From Cellulomonas hominis (GTDB taxonomy: Bacteria; Actinomycetota; Actinomycetes; Actinomycetales; Cellulomonadaceae): a DNA stretch of 64,000 bases. Positions within the stretch are counted from its first letter, which is position 1; each line of letters starts with the position of its first letter. The stretch lies in NCBI RefSeq assembly GCF_014201095.1, contig NZ_JACHDN010000001.1, positions 2,232,001-2,296,000 of the forward strand, written 5' to 3'. Both the position numbers and the translations under genes were made by a program. This document shows, piece after piece, positions 1,906 to 57,765 of this stretch. The notes below the pieces were generated by a model. That model did not search any database. It saw only the letters and a list, made by a program, of their open reading frames with translations, and had not been told where the DNA came from.

Positions 1906-1997
1906 GCCTCCTCCCGCGGCCGCTCCCTGGCGCCCGCCACCACCGCCCGGTGCGGCCACGCACCGCGCGTCTCGACAGATCAGCGAAGGAGCTGGAC

Positions 1998-12450: not shown

Positions 12451-13599
12451 TCAGTCCGCGTCCGGGACGATGACCGGCTTGATGCAGCCGTCGAGCTTCG
12501 CGGACATCAGGTGGTACCCCTCGGCGATGTGCTCCAGCGGGATGCGGTGCGTGACGATGTCCGACGGCGTCAGGTAGCCGTTGCGGATGTGCTCCAGCAG
12601 CCGCGGCCACTGCCGGCTCACGGGGGCCTGGTTCATCCGGAGGGTCAGGCCCTTGTTCATGGCGTCGCCGAACTTCACCGCGGAGAACAGCGGCCCGTAC
12701 GCGCCCATGACCGACACGGTGCCGCCCTTGCGCACGCCGTCGATCGCCCAGTTGAGCGCGACCGGCGAGCCGCCCTGCAGCTTGAGCTTCGCCGCCGTGA
12801 CGTGCTGGATGAGGTTGCCGTCCGCCTCCGCGCCGACGGCCTCGACGACGCGGTCGAAGCCGAGGCCGTCGGTGGTCTTCTTCATCTCCACGACGATGTC
12901 GTCGTAGTGGGTGTAGTTCCGCGTCTCGGCGTACGCGAAGTCGGCCGCCTTCTCGAGCCGGTAGTCGAGCTGGTCGATGACGACGACCCGGCCGGCGCCC
13001 ATCAGCCACGCGGACCGCGCCGCGAACAGGCCGACCGGCCCCGCGCCGAGCACCGCCACGGTGTCGCCCTCGGCGATGTCCGCGAGCTGCGCCCCGAAGT
13101 ACCCGGTGCCGAGCGCGTCGGTCATCATGAGCGCGTCCTCGTCGGCGAGCCAGTCCGGGATCCGCCGCGGGCCGACGTCGGCGAACGGGACGCGCACGTA
13201 CTGCGCCTGGGCGCCGTCGTAGCCGCCGGTGCTGTGCGAGTAGCCGTAGATCCCGCCGATCGCGGTCGCGTTCGGGTTCACGTTGTGGCAGTTGGAGTAC
13301 AGGCCCCGCGCGCAGAAGAAGCAGGTGCCGCAGTAGATGGTGAACGGCACCATGACGCGGTCGCCGACCTGGAGGTTCTGCACCGACGGGCCGACCCGTT
13401 CGACGACGCCGACGAACTCGTGCCCGAACGTGTGCCCGATCCGGGTGTCCGGCATCATCCCGTGGTAGAGATGCAGGTCGGAGCCGCAGATCGCCGCCCG
13501 GACCACCCGCACCACCGCGTCGTTCGGGTGCTCGATCCGCGGCTCGTCCTTCTCCTCGGCACGGACCTTGTACGGGCCGCGGTAGACCATCGCGCGCAT
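12451..13599 (-). CDS. zinc-dependent alcohol/formaldehyde dehydrogenase-like protein
   Basis: A 382-residue medium-chain dehydrogenase of the longer type resembling glutathione-independent formaldehyde dehydrogenases. Catalytic zinc: AICGSDLHLYHG and GHEFVG. Structural zinc is complete: CGTCFFCARGLYSNC. Nucleotide binding is in VLGAGPVGLFAARSA (about 183-197) with Asp after the next strand (VVVIDQLD), pointing to NAD. It is the first gene of a leftward unit and diverges from marR across 100 bp holding a palindrome. Aldehyde detoxification is the likeliest role; substrate unproven. Confidence 0.85.
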   Translation of the reverse strand: MRAMVYRGPYKVRAEEKDEPRIEHPNDAVVRVVRAAICGSDLHLYHGMMPDTRIGHTFGHEFVGVVERVGPSVQNLQVGDRVMVPFTIYCGTCFFCARGLYSNCHNVNPNATAIGGIYGYSHSTGGYDGAQAQYVRVPFADVGPRRIPDWLADEDALMMTDALGTGYFGAQLADIAEGDTVAVLGAGPVGLFAARSAWLMGAGRVVVIDQLDYRLEKAADFAYAETRNYTHYDDIVVEMKKTTDGLGFDRVVEAVGAEADGNLIQHVTAAKLKLQGGSPVALNWAIDGVRKGGTVSVMGAYGPLFSAVKFGDAMNKGLTLRMNQAPVSRQWPRLLEHIRNGYLTPSDIVTHRIPLEHIAEGYHLMSAKLDGCIKPVIVPDAD

Positions 13600-16846: not shown

Positions 16847-18463
16847 TCAGACGCGGAAGGCGGCGATGCGCGTGGCCAGCTCGCGGGTGCTGCCCGCGAC
16901 GTCGTCCATGTCGCCATCGACCCGCGCGAGCACGTCCGCGCTCGTGCCGGCGGTGGCCGCGACCGTCGTGATGCTCCCGGCGATCTCCCCGGCGCCGGCG
17001 GCGGCCTCCGTGACGGCCCGGGACATCTCCGCGGTGGTGGCGGTCTGCTCCTCGACGGCCGACGCGATGGTCATCTGGTAGTCGCTGATCCGGGCGATGA
17101 TCTGCGAGACCTGGTCGATCGCCGCCACGGCGCCGGTCGTGTCGTTCTGGATGGCCTCGACGCGGCGCGCGATGTCCTCGGTCGCACGGGCCGTCTCGGT
17201 GGCGAGCTCCTTGACCTCGCCGGCGACGACGGCGAAGCCCTTGCCGGCCTCCCCGGCGCGCGCGGCCTCGATGGTGGCGTTCAGGGCCAGCAGGTTGGTC
17301 TGCTCGGCGATCGAGGTGATGACCTTGACGACGTTCCCGATCTCCTGCGAGGACGTGCCGAGGCGGGCGACGGTGTCGTTCGTGGCGGTGACCTCGGCGG
17401 TGGCCTGCGCGGCGAACCGGGCGGCCTGCGAGGCGTTCTCGGCGATCTCGCGGATGCTCGCGCCCATCTGCTCGGCGCCGGCGGCGACGGCCTGGACGTT
17501 GCGGGACACCTGGTCGGCGGACGCGGCGGCCGCGCCGACCTGGGCGTTCGTCTCCTGCGCGGCGCGGGCACCCTCGGCGGCGGCGTCCCGCAGCGAGCCG
17601 ACGGTCGCGTCGGTGTGCTCGGCGGTGCGCGACACGTGGCCGACCAGGGTGGCGACGGCGTCGATGGCGGCGTCGAGCGCCTGGCCCGCGCGGGAGATCT
17701 CGCCGCCCCCGGCGAGCCCGGTGCGCGGCGTCAGGTCGCCCTCGGCGAGCGCGGCGGCGACGTCGGAGATGCGGCCGGCAGGGCCGGCGACGTCCCGCGT
17801 GACCTTGCGCGCCGCGTAGGCGGCGAACAGCGCGGCGCCGATGCCGAGGGCGATCAGGGCCGTGCGCCCGCGCTGCTCGGCGGCCCGCTGCTGCTCCTGG
17901 AGTGCCGTGACGCGGTCGCGGGCGGAGGCCTGGATCTCGTCGGCGAGGGTGAGCACCTGGTCGTAGGACTCGCCGGCCGCGCCGTTGTTGATCGAGTCCA
18001 TCGCGGCGGCGTAGTCGGCCGGGTCGCCGGTGCGCAGCAGCGCCACGACGGCGTCGTCGCCCGCGAAGAAGGCGTCCCACGCGGGAGCGAGGCCGTCGAA
18101 CGCCGCCCGCTCGGCCTCGGTCGCCCCGGTGGTGTCCAGGTCGGCGAGCCACTGGCGCACGGTGACCTCCGACGCGAGCAGCCCGGCGCGGTTGTCCGCG
18201 TCGTCCGCCAGCGCAGAGGGCCCCGAGGCGGCGACGTCCGCGACCACCAGCCCCTGCCACCCCGTGGCGTCGGCGATCTGGAACCGGGCCTCCTCGGCCA
18301 GGCGGAGGACGGCGTCGGCCTGCGAGACGCGGTCGGCGTAGGCGCGCTGCACCTGCGCGGTGACCAGACCGAGGGCGATGGCGGCGACGAGGACGGCGAA
18401 CAGCAGGCCGAACACGGCCGACATGCGCGCGCCGATGGACTGCTGGTTCCAGCGGGAGGTCAA
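16847..18463 (-). CDS. methyl-accepting chemotaxis protein
   Basis: A 538-residue chemoreceptor. Membrane segment 1 at about 15-36, an external helical sensor domain to about 190 (four-helix-bundle type), segment 2 at about 195-213 ([18 protein letters not shown]), a HAMP domain, then the coiled-coil signalling domain with the highly conserved hairpin tip [20 protein letters not shown] and [20 protein letters not shown] at 18463 is the start, with GGAG seven bases upstream. It should sense a small molecule outside the cell and control CheA, implying a motile organism; no che genes are nearby. It diverges from the SorC gene at 18619. Confidence 0.93.
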
Positions 18464-18618: not shown

Positions 18619-19614
18619 ATGAGCAAGGTGCCCGGCAGGCCGCGGCGTGCACCCGGGCCGGGGGGTTCCGGCGACCAGACCCGCCTCATGGCGAAGATCG
18701 CGCTGATGTACTACGAGCGCGGCGCCCGGCAGACGGACATCGCCCAGGAGCTGCACGTCTCGCAGTCGAAGGTCTCGCGGCTGCTCGCGCGGGCGGCCGA
18801 GGTGGGCATCGTCCGCACCACGGTCACGGTCCCCGCGGGGGTGCACACGGACCTGGAGGACGCGCTCGAGCGGACGTACGGGCTGCGCGAGGCCGTGGTC
18901 GTGGACGTCTCGGGCGAGGAGTCCGAGATCACCCCGGCGCTCGGGTCCGGCCTGGCCACCTACCTGGAGGCGACGCTCACCGGCGGCGAGGTCGTCGGCA
19001 TCTCGTCCTGGTCGGCGACGCTCCTCTCGGCGGCCGCCGCGATGCGCCGGTCGACGGGCCGCGTCGTGGACCAGGTGATCCAGGTGGTCGGCGGCGTGGG
19101 CGAGGCACGCGTGCAGGTGCAGGCCTCCCGGCTGATCAGCCTGTTCGCGGACGCCACCGGCGCCGACCCCGTGTTCATGCCTGCCCCGGGCCTGCTCGGC
19201 TCGCCGTCGGGCCGGCAGGTGCTGGTGGACGACCCCGCGGTCCGCTCGGTGATGGAGTCGTGGAGCGGGCTGACGACGGCGCTGGTCGGGATCGGGTCGC
19301 TGCAGCCGTCCCCGCTGCTCCGGGAGTCCGGCAACTCGCTGGCCGACCGGGACCAGGAGGAGCTGCGCGCGGCGGGTGCGGTCGGCGACATCTGCCTGCG
19401 CTACTTCGACGCGGGCGGCACCGTCGTGAAGTCGGGGTTCGACGAGCGCGTGGTCGGCATCGGTCCCGAGCAGTTCCGGGCGATCCCGCGGCGCGTCGGC
19501 GTGGCCGGCGGCGAGCGCAAGCACGACGCCATCCTCGGCGCGCTGCGCGGTGGCTGGCTGAACGTGCTGGTCACCGACGTGGACACGGCGTCCCGGCTGG
19601 TCGACGAGGCCTGA
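18619..19614 (+). CDS. SorC/DeoR-type sugar-responsive regulator 1
   Basis: A 331-residue regulator. The N-terminal HTH (ARQTDIAQELHVSQSKVSRL, about 33-55) is followed by the SorC sugar-binding domain (about 70-328) with the GISSWSATLLSA phosphosugar loop, VVGGVGE, GIGSLQPSPLL and GDICLRYFD motifs. It converges on rbsD and is very similar throughout to the regulator at 30060; the two bracket the sugar locus. Effectors of this family are phosphorylated sugars, so a pathway intermediate of this locus is the likely ligand. GATACGCT at about 18562 is a possible -10. Confidence 0.88.
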   Translation: MSKVPGRPRRAPGPGGSGDQTRLMAKIALMYYERGARQTDIAQELHVSQSKVSRLLARAAEVGIVRTTVTVPAGVHTDLEDALERTYGLREAVVVDVSGEESEITPALGSGLATYLEATLTGGEVVGISSWSATLLSAAAAMRRSTGRVVDQVIQVVGGVGEARVQVQASRLISLFADATGADPVFMPAPGLLGSPSGRQVLVDDPAVRSVMESWSGLTTALVGIGSLQPSPLLRESGNSLADRDQEELRAAGAVGDICLRYFDAGGTVVKSGFDERVVGIGPEQFRAIPRRVGVAGGERKHDAILGALRGGWLNVLVTDVDTASRLVDEA

Positions 19615-19619
19615 GGGCG

Positions 19620-19639
19620 CGCGGTCCGGTCAGACCGCG
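19620..19639. terminator. short hairpin at convergent gene ends
   Basis: Arms CGCGGTC (19620-19626) and GACCGCG (19633-19639) with a six-base loop. It spans the 15-bp gap between the SorC stop and the rbsD stop and overlaps the rbsD stop codon. It is short, so termination strength is uncertain. Confidence 0.4.
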
Positions 19640-20022
19640 AACGGCACCCCGCACCGCAGCACCACGTTCGCGTAGGCGGTGTCGTCCCCGGTGCGGATCG
19701 CGAGCCGCACGGACGGCAGCATCGCCTTGAGGTCGGCGTGCGGGATCCGCTCGGCGGGCGCGTCGAGCCGTTCGTCCACCCACCCGGCGGGCGGCCGGCC
19801 CTCGGCGTCCGCGCTGATCCACGCGTGCTCGACGACGATCTCGTCCAGCAGGGCGTCGAGCACGGTGGTGAACGGGGGCGTCCCGAACACGAGCGCGAGG
19901 TCCACGACGGGCACGGTCGGCGGCAGGGGCAGGCCGGCGTCGGCGACGACCACGAGGTCGGTGTGGCCGAGCCGGGCCAGGTGCCCGGACAGCGGGGCGT
20001 TGATGATGCCGCGGCGCTTCAT
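19630..20022 (-). CDS. rbsD: D-ribose pyranase (RbsD/FucU family mutarotase)
   Basis: A 130-residue protein matching RbsD in full length: MKRRGIINAPLSGHLARLGH with the catalytic His20, VVADAGLPLP with Asp28, and the C-terminal Tyr/Asn strand TAYANVVLRCGVPF. The family converts beta-pyranose to beta-furanose sugars for kinases. Its ATG overlaps the ribokinase stop by three bases (TCAT), so the two are coupled. It may serve ribose or another pentose imported by the RbsACB-type system opposite. Confidence 0.93.
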   Translation of the reverse strand: MKRRGIINAPLSGHLARLGHTDLVVVADAGLPLPPTVPVVDLALVFGTPPFTTVLDALLDEIVVEHAWISADAEGRPPAGWVDERLDAPAERIPHADLKAMLPSVRLAIRTGDDTAYANVVLRCGVPFAV

Positions 20023-20912
20023 GGCAGGGGGTCGTCCTTCCCGGGGTAGGAGTCCTGCGCGCCGAGGCGCAGGACGGAGGCGGCCGCGACGCGGGTGGCG
20101 TGCGCGGCGGCCTGGGTCAGGGGGTGGCCGGCGGCGAGCCCCGCGGCCAGGGCGCCGGCGAACGCGTCGCCCGCGCCGGTGGAGTCCCGCGGCGTGACGG
20201 GCCGGGCGGGCAGCGACCAGGACGCGCCGTCGGCGTACCCGGTGACGCCCGCCGCGCCGAGCGTCACGACGACCGACGCGGCGCCGAGGCCGGCGAGCTC
20301 CGCGGCGGCGTCCTCGGGCCGGGCGACGTCGTGCCCGAGCAGCACCGCGGCCTCGTGCTCGTTGACGACCAGCGGGTCTGCCAGCGCGATCGTCGCGCGG
20401 GGGAGGGCGGTCGCGGGCGCCACGTTGAGCTGCACCCGCACCCCGTGGGCGTGCGCGATCTCGGCGGCGCGGACCACCGACCCGAGCGGGATCTCGGCCT
20501 GCAGCACGCACACCCGCGCTCCCGCGATCACCGCCTCGGCGCCGTCCACCACCGCCGGCGTCACCGCGGCGTTCGCGCCCGGCACCACGACGATGGTGTT
20601 CTCCGCGTCGTCGGCCAGCGTGACGACCGCGAGCCCGGTGGGCCCGTCGACGGCCAGCACGTGCGCGAGGTCGACGCCCGCGCCCCGCAGCCCGGACAGC
20701 GCGACCGGCGCCTGCGGGTCGGACCCGACGGCGCCCACCATCGCGACGGACGCGCCGAGCCGCGCGGCGGCGACGGCCTGGTTCGCGCCCTTGCCCCCGG
20801 GCAGGGTCACGGCCCCGGTGCCGAGCAGCGTCTCCCCGGGGTGCGGGTGCCGCTCGACCTGGAGCACCAGGTCCGCGTTGATGGAGCCGACGACGACGAT
20901 GTCGGTGCCCAT
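20019..20912 (-). CDS. rbsK: ribokinase (PfkB family)
   Basis: A 297-residue PfkB kinase that phosphorylates ribose at O5. Signature 1 GGKGANQAVAAARLGA (about 40-55) and signature 2 DSTGAGDAFAGALAAGLA (about 239-256) with catalytic Asp245 in GAGD, plus the early substrate motif GSINADLVLQVERHPHPGET. AAGGGG at about 20917 precedes ATG 20912. It diverges from the FGGY kinase gene over 85 bp and is followed by rbsD in a two-gene unit. Confidence 0.92.
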   Translation of the reverse strand: MGTDIVVVGSINADLVLQVERHPHPGETLLGTGAVTLPGGKGANQAVAAARLGASVAMVGAVGSDPQAPVALSGLRGAGVDLAHVLAVDGPTGLAVVTLADDAENTIVVVPGANAAVTPAVVDGAEAVIAGARVCVLQAEIPLGSVVRAAEIAHAHGVRVQLNVAPATALPRATIALADPLVVNEHEAAVLLGHDVARPEDAAAELAGLGAASVVVTLGAAGVTGYADGASWSLPARPVTPRDSTGAGDAFAGALAAGLAAGHPLTQAAAHATRVAAASVLRLGAQDSYPGKDDPLP

Positions 20913-20944
20913 ATGTCCCCTTCGACACGATCAGGTCACGGTGG

Positions 20945-20974
20945 TTGACAGCGCCCGGCGCGTCTCCCTACCGT
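20945..20974 (+). promoter_or_regulatory. sigma-70-type promoter of the sugar kinase/importer operon
   Basis: TTGACA (20945-20950), 18-bp spacer, TACCGT (20969-20974), 24 bases before ATG 20998. A CATTC...GAATG inverted repeat (20985-20989/20996-21000) lies at the expected transcript start and reaches the start codon; it could be an operator for a SorC regulator. Confidence 0.65.
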
Positions 20975-20997
20975 GAGCGTACTTCATTCAGAGCGGA

Positions 20998-22512
20998 ATG
21001 GATATGCACGTGACTCGTTCAGCGCACGGCCCCGTGCCGTCGGCCCCGCCGGCGGTGCTGGCGCTCGACCAGGGCACCACCAACGCGAAGGCGTTGCTGG
21101 TGGACTGTGCCACGGGTGCCGTCCTCGCGGCGGGATCCCGGCCGGTCGGCATCGCGTTCCCGCGCCCTTCCTGGGTGGAGCAGGACGCCGCGCAGCTCCG
21201 GGACGCCACCCTCGCGGCCGCGGCCGAGTGCCTCGCCGCGCGCCCCGACGTCCCGGTCGCGGGCATCTCGATCTCCAGCCAGCGCGAGTCCGTCGTGTGC
21301 TGGGACCGGCGCACCGGCGCCCCGCTCGGGCCGGTGCTCGGCTGGCAGGACGCCCGGAGCGCCGGCTGGTGCGCGCGCCTCGGGCAGGACCGTCCGGACG
21401 CGGCCGCGCTGGTCCGCGAGCGCACCGGCCTCTCGCTCGACCCCATGTACTCCGCGCCGAAGATGCGCGCCGCCCTGGACGCGGCCGTCGCGGCGGGCGC
21501 GGCGCCCGGTGACGTCGCGCTCGGCACCGTCGACGCCTGGCTCGTCGCCTCGCTCACGGGCGAGCACCTGACCGAGCTCGGCAACGCGTCCCGCACACTG
21601 CTGCTCGACCTCGACACCTGCGCCTGGGACCCCGAGCTGCTGGACCTGTTCGGCGTCCCGGCCGGCGCCCTGCCCGCACCGCGCGGCTCGGACGCCGGCT
21701 TCGGCCGCACCCGGGCCGGCGGCCCGCTGCCCGCGGGCGTGCCGGTCGTGGCCGTCCTCGCCGACTCGCACGCCGCGATGCTCCAGCAGGGCTGCACCGT
21801 CCCCGGGACCGGCAAGGCGACGTTCGGCACCGGCTCGTCGGTGATGTCCCCGACCGCCACGCACAAGGGCGCCCCGGCCGGCATCACCACGACGCTCGCC
21901 TGGCACGTCGGCGGCGTCCCGACCTACGCCCGCGAGGGCAACATCGTCGCCTCCGGGTCCGCCCTGGACTGGATGGCCGCGACGCTCGGCGCGGGGGAGG
22001 GCACCGCGGGCGGCGCCTTCCTGTCCGAGCTCGCGGCCACCGTCCCGGACGCCGGCGGCGTCGCGTTCGTCCCGGCGTTCTCCGGCCTCGGGGCCCCGTA
22101 CTGGGACCGCGCCGCCACCGGCGTGCTGACCGGGGTCACGGCGGGCACCACGCGGGCGCACCTCGCCCGCGCCGCGATCGAGGCGGTGGCGCACCAGGTC
22201 GCCGACGTCGTGGACGCGGTCGAGGCGGACGGCCAGGCCCGGATCGAGGTGCTGCGCGCCGACGGCGGCGCCACCCGGTCCGCCCTGCTCATGCAGACGC
22301 AGGCCGACCTCGCCGGTCGCCCGGTCCAGGTCGGCGACGCGCCCGAGGCGTCGGCCCTCGGTGCCGCCACCCTCGCCCGCCGCACCCTCGGCCACCCGGC
22401 CGACCCGGCGGGCGTCCAGCAGACCTACCAGCCGGGGCCGGTCGACCCCGGGCCGGCCCGCCGCTCCTGGGCGCGGGCCGTCGCACGGTCGCGGGGGCAC
22501 GCGACCGACTGA
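20998..22512 (+). CDS. FGGY-family carbohydrate kinase
   Basis: A 504-residue sugar kinase. FGGY signs: phosphate loop LALDQGTTNAKALLVD (about 17-32), SQRES at about 98-102, GTGSSVMSP, FSGLGAPYWDRAATG and the adenosine-binding LRADGGATRSALLMQ (about 420-434). It resembles the glycerol/xylulo/apulose kinase branch. It heads a five-gene operon with DUF2291 and an RbsACB importer. Together with the split transketolase and isomerase at 27-30 kb it could be an apulose kinase; xylulose, erythrulose or ribulose are alternatives. ATG at 20998 or the nearby in-frame ATG at 21004 could be used. Confidence 0.88.
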   Translation: MDMHVTRSAHGPVPSAPPAVLALDQGTTNAKALLVDCATGAVLAAGSRPVGIAFPRPSWVEQDAAQLRDATLAAAAECLAARPDVPVAGISISSQRESVVCWDRRTGAPLGPVLGWQDARSAGWCARLGQDRPDAAALVRERTGLSLDPMYSAPKMRAALDAAVAAGAAPGDVALGTVDAWLVASLTGEHLTELGNASRTLLLDLDTCAWDPELLDLFGVPAGALPAPRGSDAGFGRTRAGGPLPAGVPVVAVLADSHAAMLQQGCTVPGTGKATFGTGSSVMSPTATHKGAPAGITTTLAWHVGGVPTYAREGNIVASGSALDWMAATLGAGEGTAGGAFLSELAATVPDAGGVAFVPAFSGLGAPYWDRAATGVLTGVTAGTTRAHLARAAIEAVAHQVADVVDAVEADGQARIEVLRADGGATRSALLMQTQADLAGRPVQVGDAPEASALGAATLARRTLGHPADPAGVQQTYQPGPVDPGPARRSWARAVARSRGHATD

Positions 22513-22545
22513 CGCACCGGGTCACCACCAGCTCGAAGGAGAGTC

Positions 22546-23208
22546 ATGGTCAAGGCAAGATCGACGCGGCCCCTGTGGCGGCGTCCCGCGGTCATCGGGA
22601 CGGTCGTCGCGGTCGGGGTCGTCGCCGCCGCGCTGGCGAGCACGACGTTCGTCCCCGCGGGCTCCGTGGCCCAGCCGGCGGACACGGCGGTCGAGTACGC
22701 CGACCTGAACTACGAGTCCGTCGTCGTCCCGACCCTCGAGGAGAACGCGCAGCCGCTCGACGAGCTCGTGACGGCGATCGTCGCGGACGAGGACGCCGCG
22801 GGCGAGGAGTTCGGCAGCCGCGAGGACGAGGGCAAGCCCTGGAGCTTCGCCACCGAGGTCACCGGCGTGGTCGGCGAGGGCGCGTTCGGCGAGGTCGGCC
22901 TGACCGTCGAGGGCCTGCCGGAGGGCATCACCGCCGGCGTCGCCGTCCCGCCGTTCGGCTCGAACACGGCGATCCGCGACGCCGGCACCGACCTGACGTT
23001 CGGCGACTTCACCAACCAGACCGAGTTCCAGACGGTGGCGATCGAGCTGAACAACGACGCCGTCGAGTCCGTGTACGGCGACCTGGACCCCGCGACGCTC
23101 GCCGGCAGGACGGTGCACGTCACCGGCGCGTTCACCTGGGTGTCCCGGACCGGCGGCGAGGTCGACCACGTGACGGTGGTCCCCGTGACGATCGAGGTCG
23201 AGCCGTGA
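22546..23208 (+). CDS. DUF2291-family exported protein
   Basis: A 220-residue protein with one N-terminal hydrophobic segment (about 15-33) after a basic start, then a soluble domain with WSFATEVTGVVGEG, VAVPPFGSNTAIRDAG and FGDFTNQTEFQ. This is DUF2291, a predicted periplasmic or membrane-tethered protein found next to RbsACB-type sugar importers. There is no lipobox cysteine, so here it is membrane-tethered. GAAGGAGAG precedes ATG 22546. The last bases overlap the ATPase start (GTGA). Its role, perhaps assisting the importer, is unproven. Confidence 0.8.
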   Translation: MVKARSTRPLWRRPAVIGTVVAVGVVAAALASTTFVPAGSVAQPADTAVEYADLNYESVVVPTLEENAQPLDELVTAIVADEDAAGEEFGSREDEGKPWSFATEVTGVVGEGAFGEVGLTVEGLPEGITAGVAVPPFGSNTAIRDAGTDLTFGDFTNQTEFQTVAIELNNDAVESVYGDLDPATLAGRTVHVTGAFTWVSRTGGEVDHVTVVPVTIEVEP

Positions 23209-24817
23209 CCGAGGCGCCGGCGCTCCCGGACGTCGTGCTGCGGGCCACGGGCGTCGCGAAGGTCTACGGCGGCACGCACGCGCTGCGCGGCGTCGACTTC
23301 GAGGTCCGGCGCGGCCACGTCACCGCGCTGCTCGGCGAGAACGGCGCGGGCAAGTCCACGCTGATGAAGATCCTGGCGGGCGTCGAGAAGCCCACCACCG
23401 GGACCATCGAGCTGGACGGCGCACCCGTGGAGTTCGCCTCCCCGGCGGACGCCGTGGCGCACGGGGTCGCGATCATCCACCAGGAGCTGAACCTCTGCCC
23501 CAACCTGTCGATCTCGGACAACATCTTCATCGGCCGGGAGCGGGTCAAGGGCGCGTTCGTCGACTTCCCCGCGCAGCGGGCGGCGGCCCGGGAGCTGCTC
23601 GAGCACCTCGAGGAGCCGCTGGACCCGACCACCCTCGTCGGCGACCTGCGCCTCGGCCAGCAGCAGCTCGTGGAGATCGCCCGGGCGCTGGCGGAGGACA
23701 CCCGGGTGCTCATCATCGACGAGCCGACGTCCGCGCTGTCCGCGGCCGAGGTCCACGTGCTGTTCCGGGTGATCCGGGAGCTCACGGCGCGCGGGGTGTC
23801 GATCATCTACATCTCGCACCACCTGGACGAGTGCCTGGAGATCGCGGACACCGCGGTCGTGCTGCGCGACGGCGCCCTGGTCGCCCAGGCGCCGATGGCG
23901 GACGTCGACCTCGGCTGGATCGTCTCGCAGATGGTCGGCCGCGAGGAGGGCGCCCTGTTCGCCCCGATGGCCCACGACCCGGGCGCCCCGCTGCTCGAGA
24001 TCGACGACCTCATCGTGTCGGACCCCGACGCCCCGGAGCGGCTGGCCGTGCGCGGCGTGAGCCTCACGGTGCACGCGGGCGAGGTCGTCGGCGTCTACGG
24101 GCTGATGGGCGCCGGCCGCACCGAGCTGCTCGAGGCGCTCGCCGGGCGCAACCCGGTGCTCGGCGGCCGGGTGACGCTCGACGGCGAGGACCTCACGCAC
24201 GCGACCGTCGGCGACCGGATCGACGCCGGCCTGGTGCTGGTGCCCGAGGACCGGCAGCGCGACGGGCTGGTCCAGGCGCTGAGCGTCGGCCGGAACATGG
24301 CGCTCGCGGCGGTCGACCGGTTCGTGCGCGGGCCGTTCGTGCGCGGCCGGGACGAGCGGGGCGCGGTCGAGGACGTGTCCCGGCTGGTCCGCGTGAAGAC
24401 CGCCGGCCAGGACGCCCCGATCGGCTCCCTGTCGGGCGGCAACCAGCAGAAGGTCGTCATCGGCCGGGCGCTGATGACGAAGCCGAAGCTGCTCGTGCTC
24501 GACGAGCCCACCCGCGGCATCGACGTCGGCGCGAAGGCGGACATCTTCGCGCTGATGGCCGACGAGGCCCGCAAGGGCATCGGCGTGCTGTTCGCGACCA
24601 GCGAGGTCGGGGAGGTGCTGCACGCCTGCGACCGGATCCTCGTCATGGCCCGCGGCCGCATCGCCGCCGAGCTCGACCCCCGCACGACCGACCGGGAGCA
24701 GCTCATGGCCGCGTCCGACGTGACCGTGCCCGACGACGCAGCGGGCGCGACAGCCCGCACCGACCCCGACGCGCCGACCCTGCCCGAGGCGCCCACGACC
24801 ACGACCGAGGACGAGTG

Positions 24818-24818
<1 letters not shown>
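23205..24818 (+). CDS. sugar ABC importer ATPase (RbsA-type, two nucleotide-binding domains)
   Basis: A 537-residue fused double ATPase of the CUT2 importer class. Domain 1: Walker A GENGAGKSTL (about 44-53), signature region LRLGQQQLVEIARAL, Walker B VLIIDEPTSAL. Domain 2: degenerate Walker A GLMGAGRTEL (about 300), LSGGNQQKVVIGRAL, VLDEPTRGIDVGAK. Such asymmetry is normal for RbsA. GTG 23205 overlaps the DUF2291 stop and the TGA overlaps the permease ATG, so the genes are translationally coupled. Confidence 0.93.
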
Positions 24819-26975
<2,157 letters not shown>

Positions 26976-26985
26976 CCCGAGCGGC

Positions 26986-27019
26986 GCGGCCGGGAGGTGC
27001 CCCCGCTCCTCCCGGCCGC
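26986..27019. terminator. hairpin terminator after the importer operon
   Basis: Perfect 12-bp arms GCGGCCGGGAGG (26986-26997) and CCTCCCGGCCGC (27008-27019), ten-base loop, beginning 11 bases after the binding-protein stop. The next operon starts at 27114. Confidence 0.7.
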
Positions 27020-27113
27020 CCCGCCCCGGCCCCACCGCCCCACCCCGCGCCCCTGGTGCCCGGCCGAGCGTCTGTGGCACTATGGATGCATCGTTGATCG
27101 GAGATGAATAGAT

Positions 27114-28103
27114 ATGTCGAGTTCGCTTCCCGAGTTCGGCGCCGGCCTGTGGCACTTCGCCTCGTACGTCGACCGCTACGCCACCGACGGGTACGCCCCG
27201 CCGGTGACGACGCTGGAGCAGATCGAGCGCGCGGGGTCGGTGGGCGACCTGTCCTACGTGGACGTGCCGTACCCGTTCACCGAGGGCGTCACCGTCGAGG
27301 ACGTCAAGGCCGCGCTCGAGGCCCAGGGCCTCCAGGCCATCGGGGTCACCCCCGAGATCTACATGCGCAAGTACGCCAAGGGCGCGTTCACGAACCCCGA
27401 CGCCGCCGTGCGCGCGGACCTGCTGGCCTTCCTCGACGAGGCCGCCGACGTCGTGCGGGCCCTGGGCGCGAAGTACCTCAAGGTGTGGCCCGGCCAGGAC
27501 GGCTGGGACTACCCGTTCCAGGTCTCGCACGCCCAGCAGTGGGAGCTGGCGGTCTCGGGGATGCGCGAGCTCGCGCAGGCCAACCCCGACGTGAAGATGG
27601 TCATCGAGTACAAGCCGCGCGAGCCGCGCCAGAAGATGTTCTGGGACTCCGCCGCGAAGACCGCCCTGGGCATCAAGGCCATGGGCGTGGACAACGTCGG
27701 CGTGCTGCTCGACTTCGGGCACGCGCTGTTCGGCGGGGAGTCGCCGGCCGCGGCCGCCCAGCTCCTGATCGACCACGGCCTGCTGTGGGCCATGGACGTC
27801 AACGACAACCTCCGGGGCTGGGACGACGACATGGTCGTCGGCACCGTCCACCCCGTCGAGGTCTTCGAGTTCTTCTACACGCTCAAGGTCAACAACTGGC
27901 AGGGCGTGTGGCAGCTGGACCAGTTCCCGTTCCGGGAGGACACCGTCGAGGCCGCCAGGCTCTCGATCCGGTTCCTCAAGGCGATCCACCGGGCGCTGGA
28001 CGAGCTGGACATCGACGCCCTGCGCGCGGCGCAGGAGCGGCAGGACGCGATGGGCGCGCAGAAGCTCGTCCAGGACGTCCTGTTCAGCAGCATGAGGAGC
28101 TGA
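27114..28103 (+). CDS. TIM-barrel sugar isomerase/epimerase (AP-endonuclease 2 superfamily)
   Basis: A 329-residue cytoplasmic xylose-isomerase-like barrel. Probable metal ligands: Glu in [11 protein letters not shown], Asp and His in [12 protein letters not shown], Asp in [23 protein letters not shown] carries a likely substrate Lys and Trp. GGAG lies ten bases before ATG 27114. It leads an operon with both transketolase halves and a SorC gene. In the D-apiose pathway the isomerase (D-apiose to D-apulose) comes from this superfamily, which makes it a candidate. Other keto-aldose isomerase or 3-epimerase activities cannot be excluded. Confidence 0.8.
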
Positions 28104-28105
28104 GC

Positions 28106-29017
28106 ATGACCGTGGAAGAAGACCTGGTGCCGGAGGTCGGCGCCGTGCCCACCGAGACGCTGCGCGTCTTCGGCCGGACCGCCCCCGGCGCGTCCCGCGA
28201 GGAGGTCGTCGCGCACCTGAGCGCCGCCGCCCGCGCCGTGCGGGCCCGGGACATCCAGATGGTCCGGGCCGCGGGGCTGGGGCACATCGGCGGCGAGTTC
28301 TCCGTCATCGACGTGCTGGTGACGCTGTACCTGCACGCGATGGACGTCTCGCCCGACCGGCTGGACGACCCCGACCGGGACCGGTTCATCCTGTCGAAGG
28401 GCCACGCGGCTGCGGCGCTCTACACGACGCTCGCGACCGCCGGGTTCCTGCCGCCGGAGCAGCTCGGCACGTTCATGCAGCCGCTCTCGCAGCTCAACGG
28501 GCACCCGGCGCGGACCAAGATCGACGCGGTCGAGGCGTCCACCGGCCCGCTCGGGCACGGCCTGCCGATCGCGGTCGGCACGGCGTTCGCCGGCAAGCTC
28601 GACGGCTCCGACCGGCGCACCTTCGTGGTCGTCGGCGACGGCGAGCTGCAGGAGGGCTCCAACTGGGAGGCCCTCATGACGGCCGGCAACCACCGCCTCG
28701 AGCACCTGTGCGTGATCGTCGACCGGAACCGCCTGCAGCAGGGCGCCAAGGTCGAGGACACCAACGACCTGGAGCCGCTGGCGGACAAGCTGCGCGCGTT
28801 CGGCCTCGAGGTCGTCGAGGTCGACGGGCACGACCACGGCGCGCTGGTGGACGTGTTCGCCGCCGTGCCGGCCGCGTCCGGCAAGCCGACGGCCGTGATC
28901 GCGCACACCCACAAGGGCCACCCGATCTCGTTCATGTCCGACAACGTCGCCTGGCACCACAAGGTCCCCTCGCAGGACCAGGTGGCGCAGGCCCTCTCCG
29001 AGCTGGAGGAGCAGTGA
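28106..29017 (+). CDS. transketolase, N-terminal (thiamine-diphosphate-binding) subunit
   Basis: A 303-residue half-transketolase. The thiamine diphosphate motif GDGELQEGSNWEALMTAGNH (about 178-197) is intact, with LGHIGGEFSVIDVL and RFILSKGHAAAALY earlier and STGPLGHGLPIAVG. ATG 28106 is two bases after the isomerase stop, with GAGGAG overlapping it. The next gene supplies the pyrimidine-binding and C-terminal domains, so an alpha2beta2 enzyme is expected. Split transketolases occur in dedicated sugar pathways (for example apulose-4-phosphate transketolase AptAB), separate from the housekeeping single-chain enzyme. Confidence 0.92.
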   Translation: MTVEEDLVPEVGAVPTETLRVFGRTAPGASREEVVAHLSAAARAVRARDIQMVRAAGLGHIGGEFSVIDVLVTLYLHAMDVSPDRLDDPDRDRFILSKGHAAAALYTTLATAGFLPPEQLGTFMQPLSQLNGHPARTKIDAVEASTGPLGHGLPIAVGTAFAGKLDGSDRRTFVVVGDGELQEGSNWEALMTAGNHRLEHLCVIVDRNRLQQGAKVEDTNDLEPLADKLRAFGLEVVEVDGHDHGALVDVFAAVPAASGKPTAVIAHTHKGHPISFMSDNVAWHHKVPSQDQVAQALSELEEQ

Positions 29018-29961
29018 CCGCCACGACGGAGCAGGTGCCCCTGCACGACTGCCGCGACGCCTGGGTCGAGACCCTGGTCGAGCTCGCCGAGGGCGACGAC
29101 CGCATCGTCGCCGTCGTCAACGACTCGGTCGGGTCCAGCAAGCTCGCCCCGTTCCAGCAGCGGTTCGGCGACCGGCTGATCAACGTCGGCATCGCCGAGC
29201 AGGACATGGTGGGCGTCGGCGCGGGCCTGGCGAACGGCGGCAAGATCCCGTTCGTCTCCGCGGCGGCGTGCTTCCTCACCGCGCGGGCCATGGAGCAGAT
29301 CAAGGTCGACGCGGCCTACTCCCAGCACCACGTGGTCCTCGTCGGGCAGAGCCCCGGCATGGCCTACGGCGAGCTCGGCCCGACGCACCACTCGATCGAG
29401 GACCTCGCCTGGCTGCGCACCATCCCGGGACTGACGGTGATCGTGCCGGCCGACCCCGAGGAGACCCGGCAGGCGCTGCGCTGGGCCGCGGGCCACGACG
29501 GCCCGGTGTTCGTGCGGGTGTCCCGGATGGGCGTGCCGGACGTGAACCCGCCCGGGTACCGGTTCGTGCCGGGCCGCGCCACGACGCTGCGCCAGGGCGC
29601 GGACGTGACGATCGCCGCCACCGGGACGGTCGTGTCCCGGGCGCTCGAGGCCGCCGAGGTGCTCGCGGCCGAGGGCGTCGACGCCCGCGTGCTGGCCGTG
29701 CCGACCATCAAGCCGCTCGACGAGGAGGCGCTGGTCGCCGCCGCACGCGAGACGGCCGGCATCGTCACCGTCGAGGAGGCCCTGGTCAGCGGGCTGGGCG
29801 GCGCGGTCGCCGAGCTGCTGGCCCGCCGGTCGCCCGCCCGGATGCGGATGGTCGGGGTCGACGACGCGTTCGCGCCGACGGGCTCGGTGGAGTGGCTGCT
29901 CGACCACTTCGGGATCAGCGCGGCCGGCGTCGCCGCGGCGGCGCGCGAGCTGCTGGGCTGA
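29014..29961 (+). CDS. transketolase, C-terminal (pyrimidine-binding) subunit
   Basis: A 315-residue partner of the preceding subunit. The pyrimidine-binding domain shows RLINVGIAEQDMVGVGAGLA with the catalytic Glu that activates thiamine diphosphate, and the phosphate/substrate segment GPTHHSIEDLAWLRTIPGLT. The transketolase C-terminal domain follows (GADVTIAATGTVVSRALEAA..). GTG 29014 overlaps the TGA of the N-terminal subunit (GTGA), a coupled pair. With the isomerase and kinase it would turn a four- or five-carbon ketose phosphate into triose and pentose phosphates. Confidence 0.92.
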   Translation: MTATTEQVPLHDCRDAWVETLVELAEGDDRIVAVVNDSVGSSKLAPFQQRFGDRLINVGIAEQDMVGVGAGLANGGKIPFVSAAACFLTARAMEQIKVDAAYSQHHVVLVGQSPGMAYGELGPTHHSIEDLAWLRTIPGLTVIVPADPEETRQALRWAAGHDGPVFVRVSRMGVPDVNPPGYRFVPGRATTLRQGADVTIAATGTVVSRALEAAEVLAAEGVDARVLAVPTIKPLDEEALVAAARETAGIVTVEEALVSGLGGAVAELLARRSPARMRMVGVDDAFAPTGSVEWLLDHFGISAAGVAAAARELLG

Positions 29962-29976
29962 CCCCGGCGCGGCGGA

Positions 29977-30005
29977 CCGGCGCCACCCCGCGCGGGCGGC
30001 GCCGG
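29977..30005. terminator. weak hairpin between transketolase and SorC genes
   Basis: Arms CCGGCGCC (29977-29984) and GGCGCCGG (29998-30005), 13-base loop. It may give partial termination so that the regulator is made at a lower level. Confidence 0.35.
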
Positions 30006-30059
30006 CCCCGCCGACCCGTCAGGCGGACGCGCGACGACGCGCGGGGAGGGGGACGTCGG

Positions 30060-31046
30060 GTGGCGCAGGCTCCGGCGGTCGTGCGGGCCGGTGCGGACGG
30101 CCGGCTGCGGCTGGCGACCAAGGTCGCGCGGATGTACCACGAGGGCGCGATGACCCAGGCGGAGATCGCGCAGCGGCTGCACGTCTCGCAGTCCCGCATC
30201 TCCCGGCTGCTCACCTACGCCGCCCGGGTCGGGGTCGTGCGGACCACCGTCCTGCCGCCGCAGGGCGTGTACCCCGAGCTCGAGGACGCGCTCCAGCAGG
30301 CCTACGGGCTCGGGGAGGCCGTGGTCGTGGACGTCGGCGGCGACGTCGCCGAGGTCACCCCGGCGCTCGGCGCGGCTGCGGGCGCGTACCTCGAGGCGAC
30401 GCTCACCGGCGGGGACACCGTCGGGATCTCGTCCTGGTCCGCCTCCCTGCTCGCGGCCGTCGAGTCGATGCGGCCGTTCCGCGAGCCGGTGGTCGACACG
30501 GTCGTGCAGATCGTCGGCGGCGTCGGCGACCCCGGCGTGCAGGTCCAGGCCACGCGTCTGGTCGGGTCGTTCGCCGCGCTGACCGGCGCGAGGCCCGTGT
30601 TCATGCCGACGCCCGGCCTGCTCGGCAGCGCCGAGGCCCGCGCCGCGCTGTTCGCCGACACCACCGTCGCCGGGGTGGTCGACCTCTGGCCGCGCGTGAC
30701 CCTGGCCCTCGTCGGCATCGGCTCGCTCGACCCGTCCCCGCTGCTCGCCCGGTCCGGCAACGCGATGTCCGCCGCGGACCGGCGGCGGCTGCTCGACGCC
30801 GGGGCGGTCGGGGACATCTGCCTGCGGTTCTTCGACGCCGCCGGGCGGCCGGTCCCCGCCGACCTCGACGCCCGGGTGATGGGCGTGGACGCGGCGGCGC
30901 TGCGGGCGATCCCGCGCCGGCTGGCCGTGGCGGGCGGGCACGAGAAGCACGCGGCGATCCGGGCGGCCCTGCGCGGCGGGTGGCTGACGGTCCTGGTCAC
31001 GGACGTCGAGACGGCGACGTCCCTGGTCCAGCACCGCGCCCCCTGA
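30060..31046 (+). CDS. SorC/DeoR-type sugar-responsive regulator 2
   Basis: A 328-residue paralogue of the regulator at 18619, similar along its whole length: HTH AMTQAEIAQRLHVSQSRISR (about 29-49), then the sugar-binding domain with GISSWSASLLAAVE, VQIVGGVGDPGVQVQATRL, FMPTPGLLG and GDICLRFFDAAG. GTG 30060 follows GGGAGGGGGA. It lies 98 bases after the transketolase gene, in the same orientation. The pair probably arose by duplication and divided control of the two operons of the locus; which controls which is not visible. Confidence 0.87.
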   Translation: MAQAPAVVRAGADGRLRLATKVARMYHEGAMTQAEIAQRLHVSQSRISRLLTYAARVGVVRTTVLPPQGVYPELEDALQQAYGLGEAVVVDVGGDVAEVTPALGAAAGAYLEATLTGGDTVGISSWSASLLAAVESMRPFREPVVDTVVQIVGGVGDPGVQVQATRLVGSFAALTGARPVFMPTPGLLGSAEARAALFADTTVAGVVDLWPRVTLALVGIGSLDPSPLLARSGNAMSAADRRRLLDAGAVGDICLRFFDAAGRPVPADLDARVMGVDAAALRAIPRRLAVAGGHEKHAAIRAALRGGWLTVLVTDVETATSLVQHRAP

Positions 31047-40201: not shown

Positions 40202-41026
40202 GTGTCCGGCATCACCCGCGTCCTCGGGCGCACCCCGTTCTACGTGCTGACCGGCGGGCTGGCGATCCTGTTCCTGTACCCGCTGATCTGGACGTCCATC
40301 TCGTCCGTGTCCCCGCAGCCCGGCTCCGCCCAGGTCGACGGGTTCGGCTTCGGCAACTACGCCACGCTCGCGTCCTACCAGGCCGGCGTGGCGACCTACC
40401 TGGGCAACTCGCTCGGCATCACGGCGACCGCGGTGATCGTGACGCTCGTGGTGGCGACGCTCGGCGGGTACGCGTTCGCGCGGTTCCGGTTCCCGGGCAA
40501 GGACGCGCTGTTCCTGCTCGTGCTCTCGATCCTCATGGTCCCGTACGCGACCCTGCTGATCCCGCTCGTCATCTGGCTCAAGGACCTGGGCCTGTCCAAC
40601 ACCCTCGTCGGTGTCGGCCTGGTGCTGGCGGTGTTCCAGCTGCCGTTCGCGATGTTCATGATGCGCATCTCGTTCGAGGCCGTCCCCAAGGAGCTCGAGG
40701 AGGCCGCCCTCGTCGACGGCTGCGGATCGTTCGGCGCCCTGCGCCGCGTGCTGCTGCCGGCCGTCAAGCCGGGCCTCATCACCATCGGGCTGTTCGCGTT
40801 CCTCGCCGCGTGGAACGACTTCATGGTGCCCCTGTACCTCGTGGGCGGCGACAACCAGCCGCTGCCCCTCGCGCTGGTGAACATGCGCCAGCAGGTGATG
40901 GGGGTCATCGACTACGGCGCCACCCAGGCGGGTGTCGTCGTCCTCACCATCCCGTGCGTCGTGCTGTTCCTCGTGCTGCAGCGGCACTACGTCAACGGGT
41001 TCATGTCGGGAGCGCTGAAGGGATGA
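40202..41026 (+). CDS. ABC importer permease 2 (MalG-type)
   Basis: A 274-residue permease with six predicted segments. The EAA loop is ELEEAALVDGCGSFGALRRV (about 165-184); YPLIWTSISS and the ending FLVLQRHYVNGFMSGALKG are typical of MalG. The stop overlaps the ATG of the GH127 gene (ATGA), a direct sign that transport and hydrolysis are one unit. Confidence 0.9.
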   Translation: MSGITRVLGRTPFYVLTGGLAILFLYPLIWTSISSVSPQPGSAQVDGFGFGNYATLASYQAGVATYLGNSLGITATAVIVTLVVATLGGYAFARFRFPGKDALFLLVLSILMVPYATLLIPLVIWLKDLGLSNTLVGVGLVLAVFQLPFAMFMMRISFEAVPKELEEAALVDGCGSFGALRRVLLPAVKPGLITIGLFAFLAAWNDFMVPLYLVGGDNQPLPLALVNMRQQVMGVIDYGATQAGVVVLTIPCVVLFLVLQRHYVNGFMSGALKG

Positions 41027-42966
41027 CCAGCCCCGTGAACCACCGCACCACCACCACCGTCGTCGCCCCCGTCCTGCCGTCCACGGGCGCCCTGCGCCCG
41101 CTCGGGCTGGAGGAGGTCACGCTCACCGGCGGCTTCTGGGCCGACCGCCAGCGCGTCAACGCCGCCGCGACCATCCCGCACTGCGACCACTGGGAGACCC
41201 GGGTCGGCTGGATCGGGAACTTCGAGCGCGCGCTCGACGGCACCCTGGTCGAGCACCGCACCGGGCGGGAGTTCGCGGACTCCGACGTCTACAAGATGAT
41301 CGAGGCCATGGCGTGGGAGGTCGGGCGCACCGGCGACCCCGCCCTGGAGGCCCGGATCGGCGAGCTCGCCGCGCTGATCGGGCGTGTGCAGGAGCCGGAC
41401 GGGTACCTCAACACGCAGTTCGGCCGGCCGGGCCAGGCGCCGCGGTACTCCGACTTGGAGTGGGGCCACGAGCTGTACTGCTACGGCCACCTGATCCAGG
41501 CCGCCGTGGCGCGGCTGCGCACCGGGCACGACGACGAGCTCGTGGCCGTCGCCCGCCGGGCCGCCGACCACGTGTGCGCGGAGTTCGGGCCGGACGGCCG
41601 CGACGGCGTCTGCGGCCACCCGGAGATCGAGGTCGCGCTCGCGGAGCTCGCCCGGGCGACCGGCGAGCGCCGGTACCTGGACCAGGCGGCGCTGTTCGTC
41701 GAGCGCCGGGGCCGCGGCACGCTCGCGCCCATCGAGTTCGGGCGGGAGTACTACCAGGACGACGAGCCCGTCCGGTCGGCGACCGTGCTGCGCGGGCACG
41801 CGGTCCGAGCGCTGTACCTCGCGGCCGGGGCCCTCGACGTGGCGGTCGAGACCGGGGACGACGAGCTGCTCGAGGCCGTGCGGGCGCAGTACGCCCGGAC
41901 GCTCGCGAGCCGCACCTACCTGACCGGCGGCATGGGCTCGCACCACCAGGACGAGGCCTTCGGCGACGACTACGAGCTCCCGCCGGACCGGGCCTACTGC
42001 GAGACCTGCGCCGGCGTCGCGTCGGTCATGGTGTCCTGGCGGCTGCTGCTCGCGACGGGTGACGCGTCCTGGGGCGACGTCGTCGAGCGCACCCTGTACA
42101 ACGTGGTGGCGACCTCGCCGCGGGCCGACGGGAAGGCGTTCTTCTACACGAACCCGCTGCAGAAGCGCGTGCCCGGGGAGGCCGCCTCGGACGACGAGGT
42201 GAGCGCCCGCGCGCTGTCCCGGCTGCGCGCCCCGTGGTTCGAGGTGTCCTGCTGCCCGACCAACGTCGCCCGCACGCTCGCGGCGCTCGGCGGCTACGTC
42301 GCCGCGGTCTCCGACGACACGCTGCACCTGCTGCAGCACGCGTCCGCGCGGATCGCCACCCGGCTGGGCGACGGGCGGGCCGTCGGGGTCGAGGTCGTCA
42401 CCGGGTACCCGGTGGACGGGGAGGTCGTCGTCCGGGTGACCGAGGCGCCCGAGGGTCCGTGGACGCTCGCGCTGCGGGTGCCGGCGTGGGCGGCGGGGGA
42501 CGCGCTGGTCGACGGGGCGCCGGCCGAGGTGGTCGACGGGGTCGTGCGCGTGCAGCGGGAGCTCGCCGCCGGCGACGAGGTGCGGCTCGTGCTGCCGGTC
42601 GCGCCGCGGGTCACCGTGCCCGACGGGCGGATCGACGCGGTGCGCGGGTGCGTGGCCGTCGAGCGCGGGCCGGTCGTGCTCTGCGCCGAGTCCGTGGACC
42701 TGCCCGGCGGTGCGGCCGTCGACACCCTGCGCGTGGACGCCGGGGCGTCGGCCGTCGCGGACGGGGACGGCGCCCGGGTGCGGGCGCGGCTCGTGCCGGC
42801 GGACGAGGGCGGGGCTGCGGACGGGGCCGGGGCCGGGGCCGGGTGGCCGTACGGCGCGCCGGGGACCGGGGGCGCGGGGGAGGCCGTCGACGTGCGGCTC
42901 GTGCCGTACCACTCCTGGGCCAACCGCGGCCCGAGCACCATGCGGGTCTGGCTGCCCACCGCCTGA
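41023..42966 (+). CDS. GH127 beta-L-arabinofuranosidase (DUF1680)
   Basis: A 647-residue intracellular enzyme with no signal peptide. An (alpha/alpha)6 barrel fills about 25-430 and beta-sandwich domains follow. The zinc-cysteine active site of the characterised Bifidobacterium enzyme HypBA1 is conserved: AYCETCAG gives Glu327 and Cys329, and SCCPTN gives Cys410 (nucleophile by analogy) and Cys411. WGHELYCYGHLIQAA and TGGMGSHHQDEAFG are also family marks. GH127 releases L-arabinose from beta-L-arabinofuranosides such as the sugar chains of plant hydroxyproline-rich glycoproteins. The final 60 residues hold a Gly/Ala-rich insert. With the importer it forms an uptake-and-cleavage operon. Confidence 0.9.
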   Translation: MTSPVNHRTTTTVVAPVLPSTGALRPLGLEEVTLTGGFWADRQRVNAAATIPHCDHWETRVGWIGNFERALDGTLVEHRTGREFADSDVYKMIEAMAWEVGRTGDPALEARIGELAALIGRVQEPDGYLNTQFGRPGQAPRYSDLEWGHELYCYGHLIQAAVARLRTGHDDELVAVARRAADHVCAEFGPDGRDGVCGHPEIEVALAELARATGERRYLDQAALFVERRGRGTLAPIEFGREYYQDDEPVRSATVLRGHAVRALYLAAGALDVAVETGDDELLEAVRAQYARTLASRTYLTGGMGSHHQDEAFGDDYELPPDRAYCETCAGVASVMVSWRLLLATGDASWGDVVERTLYNVVATSPRADGKAFFYTNPLQKRVPGEAASDDEVSARALSRLRAPWFEVSCCPTNVARTLAALGGYVAAVSDDTLHLLQHASARIATRLGDGRAVGVEVVTGYPVDGEVVVRVTEAPEGPWTLALRVPAWAAGDALVDGAPAEVVDGVVRVQRELAAGDEVRLVLPVAPRVTVPDGRIDAVRGCVAVERGPVVLCAESVDLPGGAAVDTLRVDAGASAVADGDGARVRARLVPADEGGAADGAGAGAGWPYGAPGTGGAGEAVDVRLVPYHSWANRGPSTMRVWLPTA

Positions 42967-57676: not shown

Positions 57677-57742
57677 GGCGGTCCTTCGTGTCGCGGTCGT
57701 TCGGTCGGTTCGCCCGGGGACGCGCCCGGGCCCGTCCCCATG

Positions 57743-57757
57743 TTGCCACGTTGCAAA
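57743..57757. promoter_or_regulatory. LacI-type operator O3 upstream of the GH2 gene
   Basis: TTGCCACGTTGCAAA, the same near-palindrome as O1 and O2 at 58810-58854. It lies between the end of the LacI gene and the GH2 start, so GH2 has its own regulated promoter. Confidence 0.75.
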
Positions 57758-57765
57758 GCCCGTCG

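Follow-up and report, generated by a model that had tools for sequence, protein, structure and literature searches.

This report concerns a sugar uptake and catabolism locus at positions 18619-31046 of a window of 64,000 nucleotides, which is the whole stretch analysed, from Cellulomonas hominis (contig NZ_JACHDN010000001.1). A first-pass annotation of the sequence had proposed that the locus serves D-apiose, a branched sugar found in plant cell walls and flavonoids. The gene set named in that annotation is present in full as twelve open frames, with a SorC-family regulator gene at each end.

The first regulator, SorC1 (18619-19614, plus strand), has 331 amino acids and carries the SorC effector domain PF04198 (191.5 bits). 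Two minus-strand genes follow, rbsD for D-ribose pyranase (19630-20022) and rbsK for a ribokinase-type PfkB kinase (20019-20912). RbsD scores above its NCBIfam cut-off (NF008761, 116.9 bits; cut-off 93), whereas RbsK falls below its own (TIGR02152, 277 bits; cut-off 299.65), as do the three importer proteins described next. All remaining genes are on the plus strand. A putative promoter of the kinase operon lies at 20945-20974, with TTGACA at 20945-20950 and TACCGT at 20969-20974; by eye, the TTGACA is also seen in the matching regions of six related loci. The first gene of this operon encodes an FGGY kinase of 504 amino acids, probably a D-apulose kinase, AplK (20998-22512; PF00370 and PF02782), whose real start codon may be a few codons 3' of 20998. 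It is followed by a DUF2291 protein, a lipoprotein-type importer accessory (22546-23208; PF10054, 126 bits), and by an importer of the CUT2 type. The importer comprises an RbsA-type ATPase (23205-24818; 481-510 bits with the NCBIfam xylose, arabinose and ribose ATPases, all below cut-off), an RbsC-type permease (24818-25933; NF007067, 285 bits; cut-off 398), and an RbsB-type protein that probably binds apiose or ribose (25971-26975). Next come a predicted D-apiose isomerase, ApsI, which is a TIM barrel of 329 amino acids (27114-28103), and the predicted N and C halves of an apulose-4-phosphate transketolase, AptA (28106-29017; PF00456) and AptB (29014-29961; PF02779 and PF02780), whose adjacent genes overlap by 4 bases.

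The second regulator, SorC2 (30060-31046; 328 amino acids; PF04198, 190.5 bits), is 59% identical to SorC1, which is itself 86% identical to the copy at the same position in C. hominis. Both proteins combine this effector domain with a DeoR-like HTH and score 189-205 bits with the DeoR profile NF053881, below its cut-off of 420. In a tree of 38 SorC rows, from which 16 loci had been dropped as near-duplicates, SorC1 and SorC2 fall among the SorC proteins of actinobacterial apiose loci with modest support (83/88), and the tree gives no order of age for the two. At G000:C1:2519425-2524727, a third SorC gene of the genome is found some 3 kb away from an FGGY gene of the glycerol kinase kind.

Enzymes, importer and the predicted sugar

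The apiose assignment rests on the isomerase, because the sugar cannot be told from the module of kinase, transporter and transketolase on its own. The isomerase matches PDB entry 3ktc with 538 bits over residues 4-327, whereas the next chain, which is the best true xylose isomerase, reaches 58 bits. The PDB title of 3ktc is 'Xylose isomerase', and the protein is presumably from Pectobacterium atrosepticum. The first-pass annotation had placed the enzyme in the xylose-isomerase-like superfamily. It lies far from the xylose and rhamnose isomerases themselves, and clustering with erythrulose-, ribulose- or xylulose-specific families was not seen. Its closest named relative is a copy from Cellulomonas hominis, a member of the Micrococcales in Actinomycetota (92%). 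It is 70% identical to its homologue in the cluster of P. carotovorum DSM 30168 (L052). Alongside the isomerase, that cluster holds a SorC regulator, the FGGY kinase, the two transketolase halves and an importer made up of binding protein, ATPase and permease.

The kinase has its top match in the Pectobacterium genome in the kinase of the apiose cluster (46%, 359 bits), and a GlpK-like kinase there scores lower (37%, 298 bits); this agrees with the FGGY apulose kinase proposed earlier. A kinase tree, built with 38 sequences selected out of 67 rows, is compatible with this role and not decisive. The window kinase groups in it with two Cellulomonas cluster kinases (100/99), and the GlpK-like pair is set apart on a long branch. 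The proposal of a two-subunit transketolase also holds, with N and C halves that are adjacent and each 45% identical to AptA or AptB of Escherichia coli SE15. AptA contains the letters GDG...N, which we take to be the thiamine diphosphate (ThDP) motif. The second-best match to the N half in the genome is 37% identical over residues 43-257.

The binding protein is 60% identical to RHE_PF00037 of Rhizobium etli (4ry0), which is titled a ribose transporter binding protein. Structure 5ibq, presumably the apiose complex of RHE_PF00037, was absent among the 50 structure rows listed. Eleven pocket-type residues, chosen by reference to E. coli RbsB, are retained in 29-30 of 30 aligned rows, including the window protein. 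The alignment-based model of the protein is good (pLDDT 87.8); the single-sequence fold was too poor (pLDDT 45.7) and was left unused. None of the 14 other matches to the binding protein in the genome exceeds 29% identity. A description of the system as the only ribose importer of the genome was dropped, with 12 further CUT2-type permease matches found, some of them fragments. Divergent rbsK stands beside the operon in six other actinobacterial loci, and rbsD in five. Since rbsK recurs in this way, the arrangement suggests an importer common to ribose and apiose, and through RbsD and RbsK this one importer would probably be open to ribose as well.

The rbsD and rbsK genes, together with the ribose relatives of the binding protein, ATPase and permease, would also fit a locus for ribose or another pentose, such as ribulose or xylulose, with a TIM-barrel pentose isomerase of some other specificity. 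However, ribose requires only RbsDK, with no isomerase, FGGY kinase or dedicated transketolase. The isomerase, moreover, is far from the xylose isomerases and is accompanied by a split transketolase in 59 of the 83 loci compared (see below), eight of which have rbsK. We consider a pentose locus quite improbable. Catabolism of erythritol, threitol or another C4 polyol can likewise involve an FGGY kinase and a TIM-barrel isomerase, and a zinc-type alcohol dehydrogenase is encoded about 5 kb before SorC1 (12451-13599, minus strand; PF08240 and PF00107). The earlier statement that no polyol dehydrogenase is present is therefore true of the twelve locus genes and does not extend to this neighbour. 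C4 polyol catabolism is nevertheless extremely unlikely. The locus has no internal dehydrogenase, its isomerase matches the apiose-cluster enzyme, and relatives of the alcohol dehydrogenase are found in just 2 of the 83 isomerase loci.

The locus thus very probably mediates import of D-apiose and its catabolism by the non-oxidative, transketolase pathway. The first-pass assignment to apiose stands because an ApsI-type isomerase is present, and it is supported by the 70% isomerase match, the best match of the kinase to a cluster kinase and the module shared with SE15. RbsB, RbsC and RbsA, with DUF2291, would import D-apiose, which ApsI would convert to D-apulose. AplK would phosphorylate D-apulose to apulose 4-phosphate. 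AptA and AptB, as a two-subunit ThDP transketolase, would then transfer C1 and C2 as a unit onto glyceraldehyde 3-phosphate, so that xylulose 5-phosphate and dihydroxyacetone phosphate are formed for central metabolism. These are the reactions ascribed to ApsI, AplK and AptA with AptB. As for the oxidative (apionate) route of D-apiose, no apiose dehydrogenase, lactonase, RuBisCO-like protein or transcarboxylase was found among the twelve locus genes, to which this examination was confined. From its genes, the locus is supported as a further and well conserved actinobacterial member of the non-oxidative D-apiose pathway already described, and growth of Cellulomonas-type actinobacteria on D-apiose becomes directly predictable from it.

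Conservation of the module and a candidate operator

Isomerase loci were compared using the best 80 of 339 contig relatives and three plasmid loci, 83 in all, with flanks of up to 10 kb; L113 and L012 cover one and the same stretch, which was counted once. Counts over these loci are not independent events, because selection was by isomerase similarity, contig ends cut some of the loci short and the species are related. The transketolase N half is present in 59 loci, the C half in 59, the FGGY kinase in 58 and the binding protein in 42. The kinase and both halves occur together in the flanks of 57 of the 83 isomerase loci, and by named phylum in 40 of 42 loci from Actinomycetota and 14 of 37 from Pseudomonadota. 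The order rbsK, kinase, DUF2291, rbsACB, isomerase, tktNC is kept in six other actinobacterial loci (L008, L012, L013, L015, L022 and L053), so the grouping of these genes is more than chance. Neither transketolase half is found in 24 loci (for example L026, L030, L034 and L039), mostly from Pantoea, with 14 loci, and its relatives. The isomerase genes of these 24 loci probably belong to an apiose regulon as unlinked genes.

Two candidate SorC operators were found in the window, both given on the plus strand. The first (20985-21008) combines CATTC-N6-GAATG (20985-21000) with a sequence like TGAAT-N4-ATTCA (20995-21008), and it is conserved at this position in related loci. CATTC-N6-GAATG has one exact copy in the 4.49-Mb genome, this one, and two more places match it with one mismatch. 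The second (27098-27118) lies over the isomerase start codon and includes a further sequence like TGAAT-N4-ATTCA (27105-27118). A related word, TC-N6-GAAT-NN-ATAT, has exactly two copies in the genome, at window positions 20988 before the kinase and 27098 before the isomerase, and none for the reversed control; it has 58 copies in 82 loci, compared with 1 and 0 for two controls. This word was derived from these actinobacterial sites themselves. Both window hits therefore arise by construction, and the one informative result is the lack of further copies in the rest of the genome.

The more general word TGAAT-N4-ATTCA has 64 copies in the 82 loci (1.56 Mb), of which 59, in 47 loci, lie no more than 300 bp upstream of one of the locus genes. 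Seven control palindromes have 0-2 copies each and none upstream. Sites before isomerase, binding-protein or transketolase genes of Enterobacterales often read TGAATATATATTCA. Among the 24 loci with neither transketolase half, 18 have a perfect copy within 400 bp upstream of the isomerase. A second set was made up of seven of the 25 matches listed (715 records) and the whole SE15 cluster, which had been partly scanned in the first set. In this set, all seven SorC loci (L142, L143, L144, L146, L147, L148 and L149) have a perfect copy; the SorC genes of L147 and L148, which have no annotation, were found by tblastn. L145, whose regulator is DeoR/GlpR, lacks a perfect copy; it has a single copy with one mismatch, within the control range of 0-2 per locus. 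Likewise, L007 in the first set, also with DeoR/GlpR, lacks the word. Against an operator, L006 has a SorC gene and yet no copy within one mismatch, and 21 of the 82 loci, including the near relatives L008, L012, L013 and L022, still lack an upstream copy when one mismatch is allowed.

We regard TGAAT-N4-ATTCA as a candidate SorC operator. Through sites of this type, SorC1, SorC2 or both would act as repressors of two promoters, one before aplK and the other before apsI. By analogy with Bacillus subtilis DeoR, a sugar phosphate, perhaps apulose 4-phosphate, may relieve the repression. If right, the word provides a sequence handle on unclustered apiose genes. It is the candidate operator and the linkage to ribose that merit work at the bench.

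Several observations weigh against the apiose assignment or the proposed control. The proteins used for comparison are cluster members of DSM 30168 and SE15, none of which is by name the characterised ApsI, AptA or AptB. The kinase tree does not establish the cluster kinases as a single clade separate from GlpK, and their joint grouping is merely compatible with the data (approximately unbiased test, p-AU 0.434). The isomerase was found at E<=1e-60 in 3 of 117 other relatives searched, two of the three in the same genus, which makes the trait patchy, through gain or loss. No match to the Pfam family Apiosidase (PF13204) was found in the genome, in a search whose control was positive in 2 of 14 genomes. 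The sites in the window are degenerate, with two mismatches to TGAAT-N4-ATTCA at 20995-21008 and three at 27105-27118. The word also does not track the SorC gene: it is perfect in 28 of the 49 loci that have SorC and in 19 of the 33 that lack it, or in 38 of 49 and 23 of 33 if up to one mismatch is allowed. Unlinked isomerase genes account for much of the group without SorC. Lastly, the module occurs with front-end enzymes other than ApsI.

This last point bears on the possibility that the SorC-AplK-AptAB genes form a generic module serving some other ketose, branched or unusual, which might derive for instance from a polyol or an L-sugar; the front enzyme would then decide which substrate is used. 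By annotated name, a FucI/AraA-like isomerase takes the place of ApsI on Sodalis and Rahnella plasmids (L143:9710-11128 and L144:9713-11131), in clusters that otherwise match. SDR dehydrogenases, again as annotated, form the front end in the modules of Caballeronia, Rhizobium T136 and E. coli SE15, with two SDR genes at the place of the isomerase in SE15 (L149:4042-5657). An Erwinia plasmid (L142) carries SorC and both transketolase halves only. However, the front enzyme in the window is of the ApsI type, 70% identical to the Pectobacterium cluster copy, and the accessible part of PMC13001218 reports that Escherichia clusters bearing SDR genes support growth on D-apiose. A different ketose as the substrate of the window locus has accordingly little probability beside D-apiose.

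A wider view can be put forward tentatively, with somewhat more doubt than confidence. A SorC regulon extending across phyla and using the single word TGAAT-N4-ATTCA may control a ketose module of importer, FGGY kinase and split transketolase, to which swappable front enzymes (ApsI, the FucI/AraA-like isomerase or SDR dehydrogenases) would admit different sugars. In Cellulomonas-type actinobacteria, this module would be joined with rbsDK as an uptake unit for ribose plus apiose, placed in the window under two related SorC proteins.

Neighbouring genes and known systems

Among 20 open frames scanned outside the locus are a large polysaccharide lyase of family PL8 that contains three F5/8 type C stretches (768-6488), a GH127 beta-L-arabinofuranosidase (40810-42966) and a GH2-type protein (55871-57769). 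Some GH127 and GH2 enzymes attack the side chains of pectin. Other genes separate the polysaccharide-degrading neighbours of the first-pass annotation from the locus, the families are not diagnostic of pectin, and the ecological argument is weak. A GH127 gene is also close to the apiose-type locus L007 of Rhizobium. A methyl-accepting chemotaxis protein (16847-18463; PF00015) is encoded divergently from SorC1. A place for it in the system was weighed and then given up, with relatives in 2 of the 83 isomerase loci and none at this place in the C. hominis contig L008.

The enzymes of the non-oxidative D-apiose pathway were reportedly defined by Carter et al. in 2018 (Nat Chem Biol 14:696). The literature searched, mostly without subscription papers, gave no account of an actinobacterial apiose locus or of a TGAAT-N4-ATTCA operator. 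This says little about prior publication, because most subscription papers, including the founding paper, lay outside the search. According to the accessible part of PMC13001218, the pathway has been described in P. carotovorum WPP14 with the genes apsI, aplK, aptA and aptB, and it is predicted in 98 genera. The same part reports growth on D-apiose for P. carotovorum, E. fergusonii and E. coli strains of STc131 and STc14 that have the cluster.

The P. carotovorum cluster, as found in DSM 30168, has the same enzyme set, importer type and SorC regulator as the window. It differs from the window, where the order is rbsDK<-->aplK-DUF2291-rbsACB-apsI-aptAB, with two SorC genes and rbsDK attached. 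The cluster of E. coli SE15 (ST131) is the query cluster in PMC13001218, the accessible part of which states growth for ST131 strains with the cluster and not for SE15 by name. It resembles the window in SorC, DUF2291, RbsABC, FGGY kinase and split transketolase, with identities of 43% for the kinase, 45% for each transketolase half, 38% for the binding protein and 37.5-39% for SorC. A search of E. coli genomes at the DNA level (11-base words) with the isomerase-transketolase stretch gave no match, as expected from 45% protein identity. A perfect TGAAT-N4-ATTCA lies between SorC and aptA in SE15. In contrast to the window, SE15 has no ApsI and carries two SDR oxidoreductases in its stead, whose role is given as a hypothesis in the accessible part of PMC13001218.

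Among regulators, B. subtilis DeoR also belongs to the SorC family, and its operator, described in the accessible part of PMC11229326 as a TTGAA...TTCAA palindrome with a further repeat, is of similar make. On the same source, DeoR differs in its regulon and in its effector, deoxyribose 5-phosphate. A further difference is the four-base spacer of the candidate operator described here.

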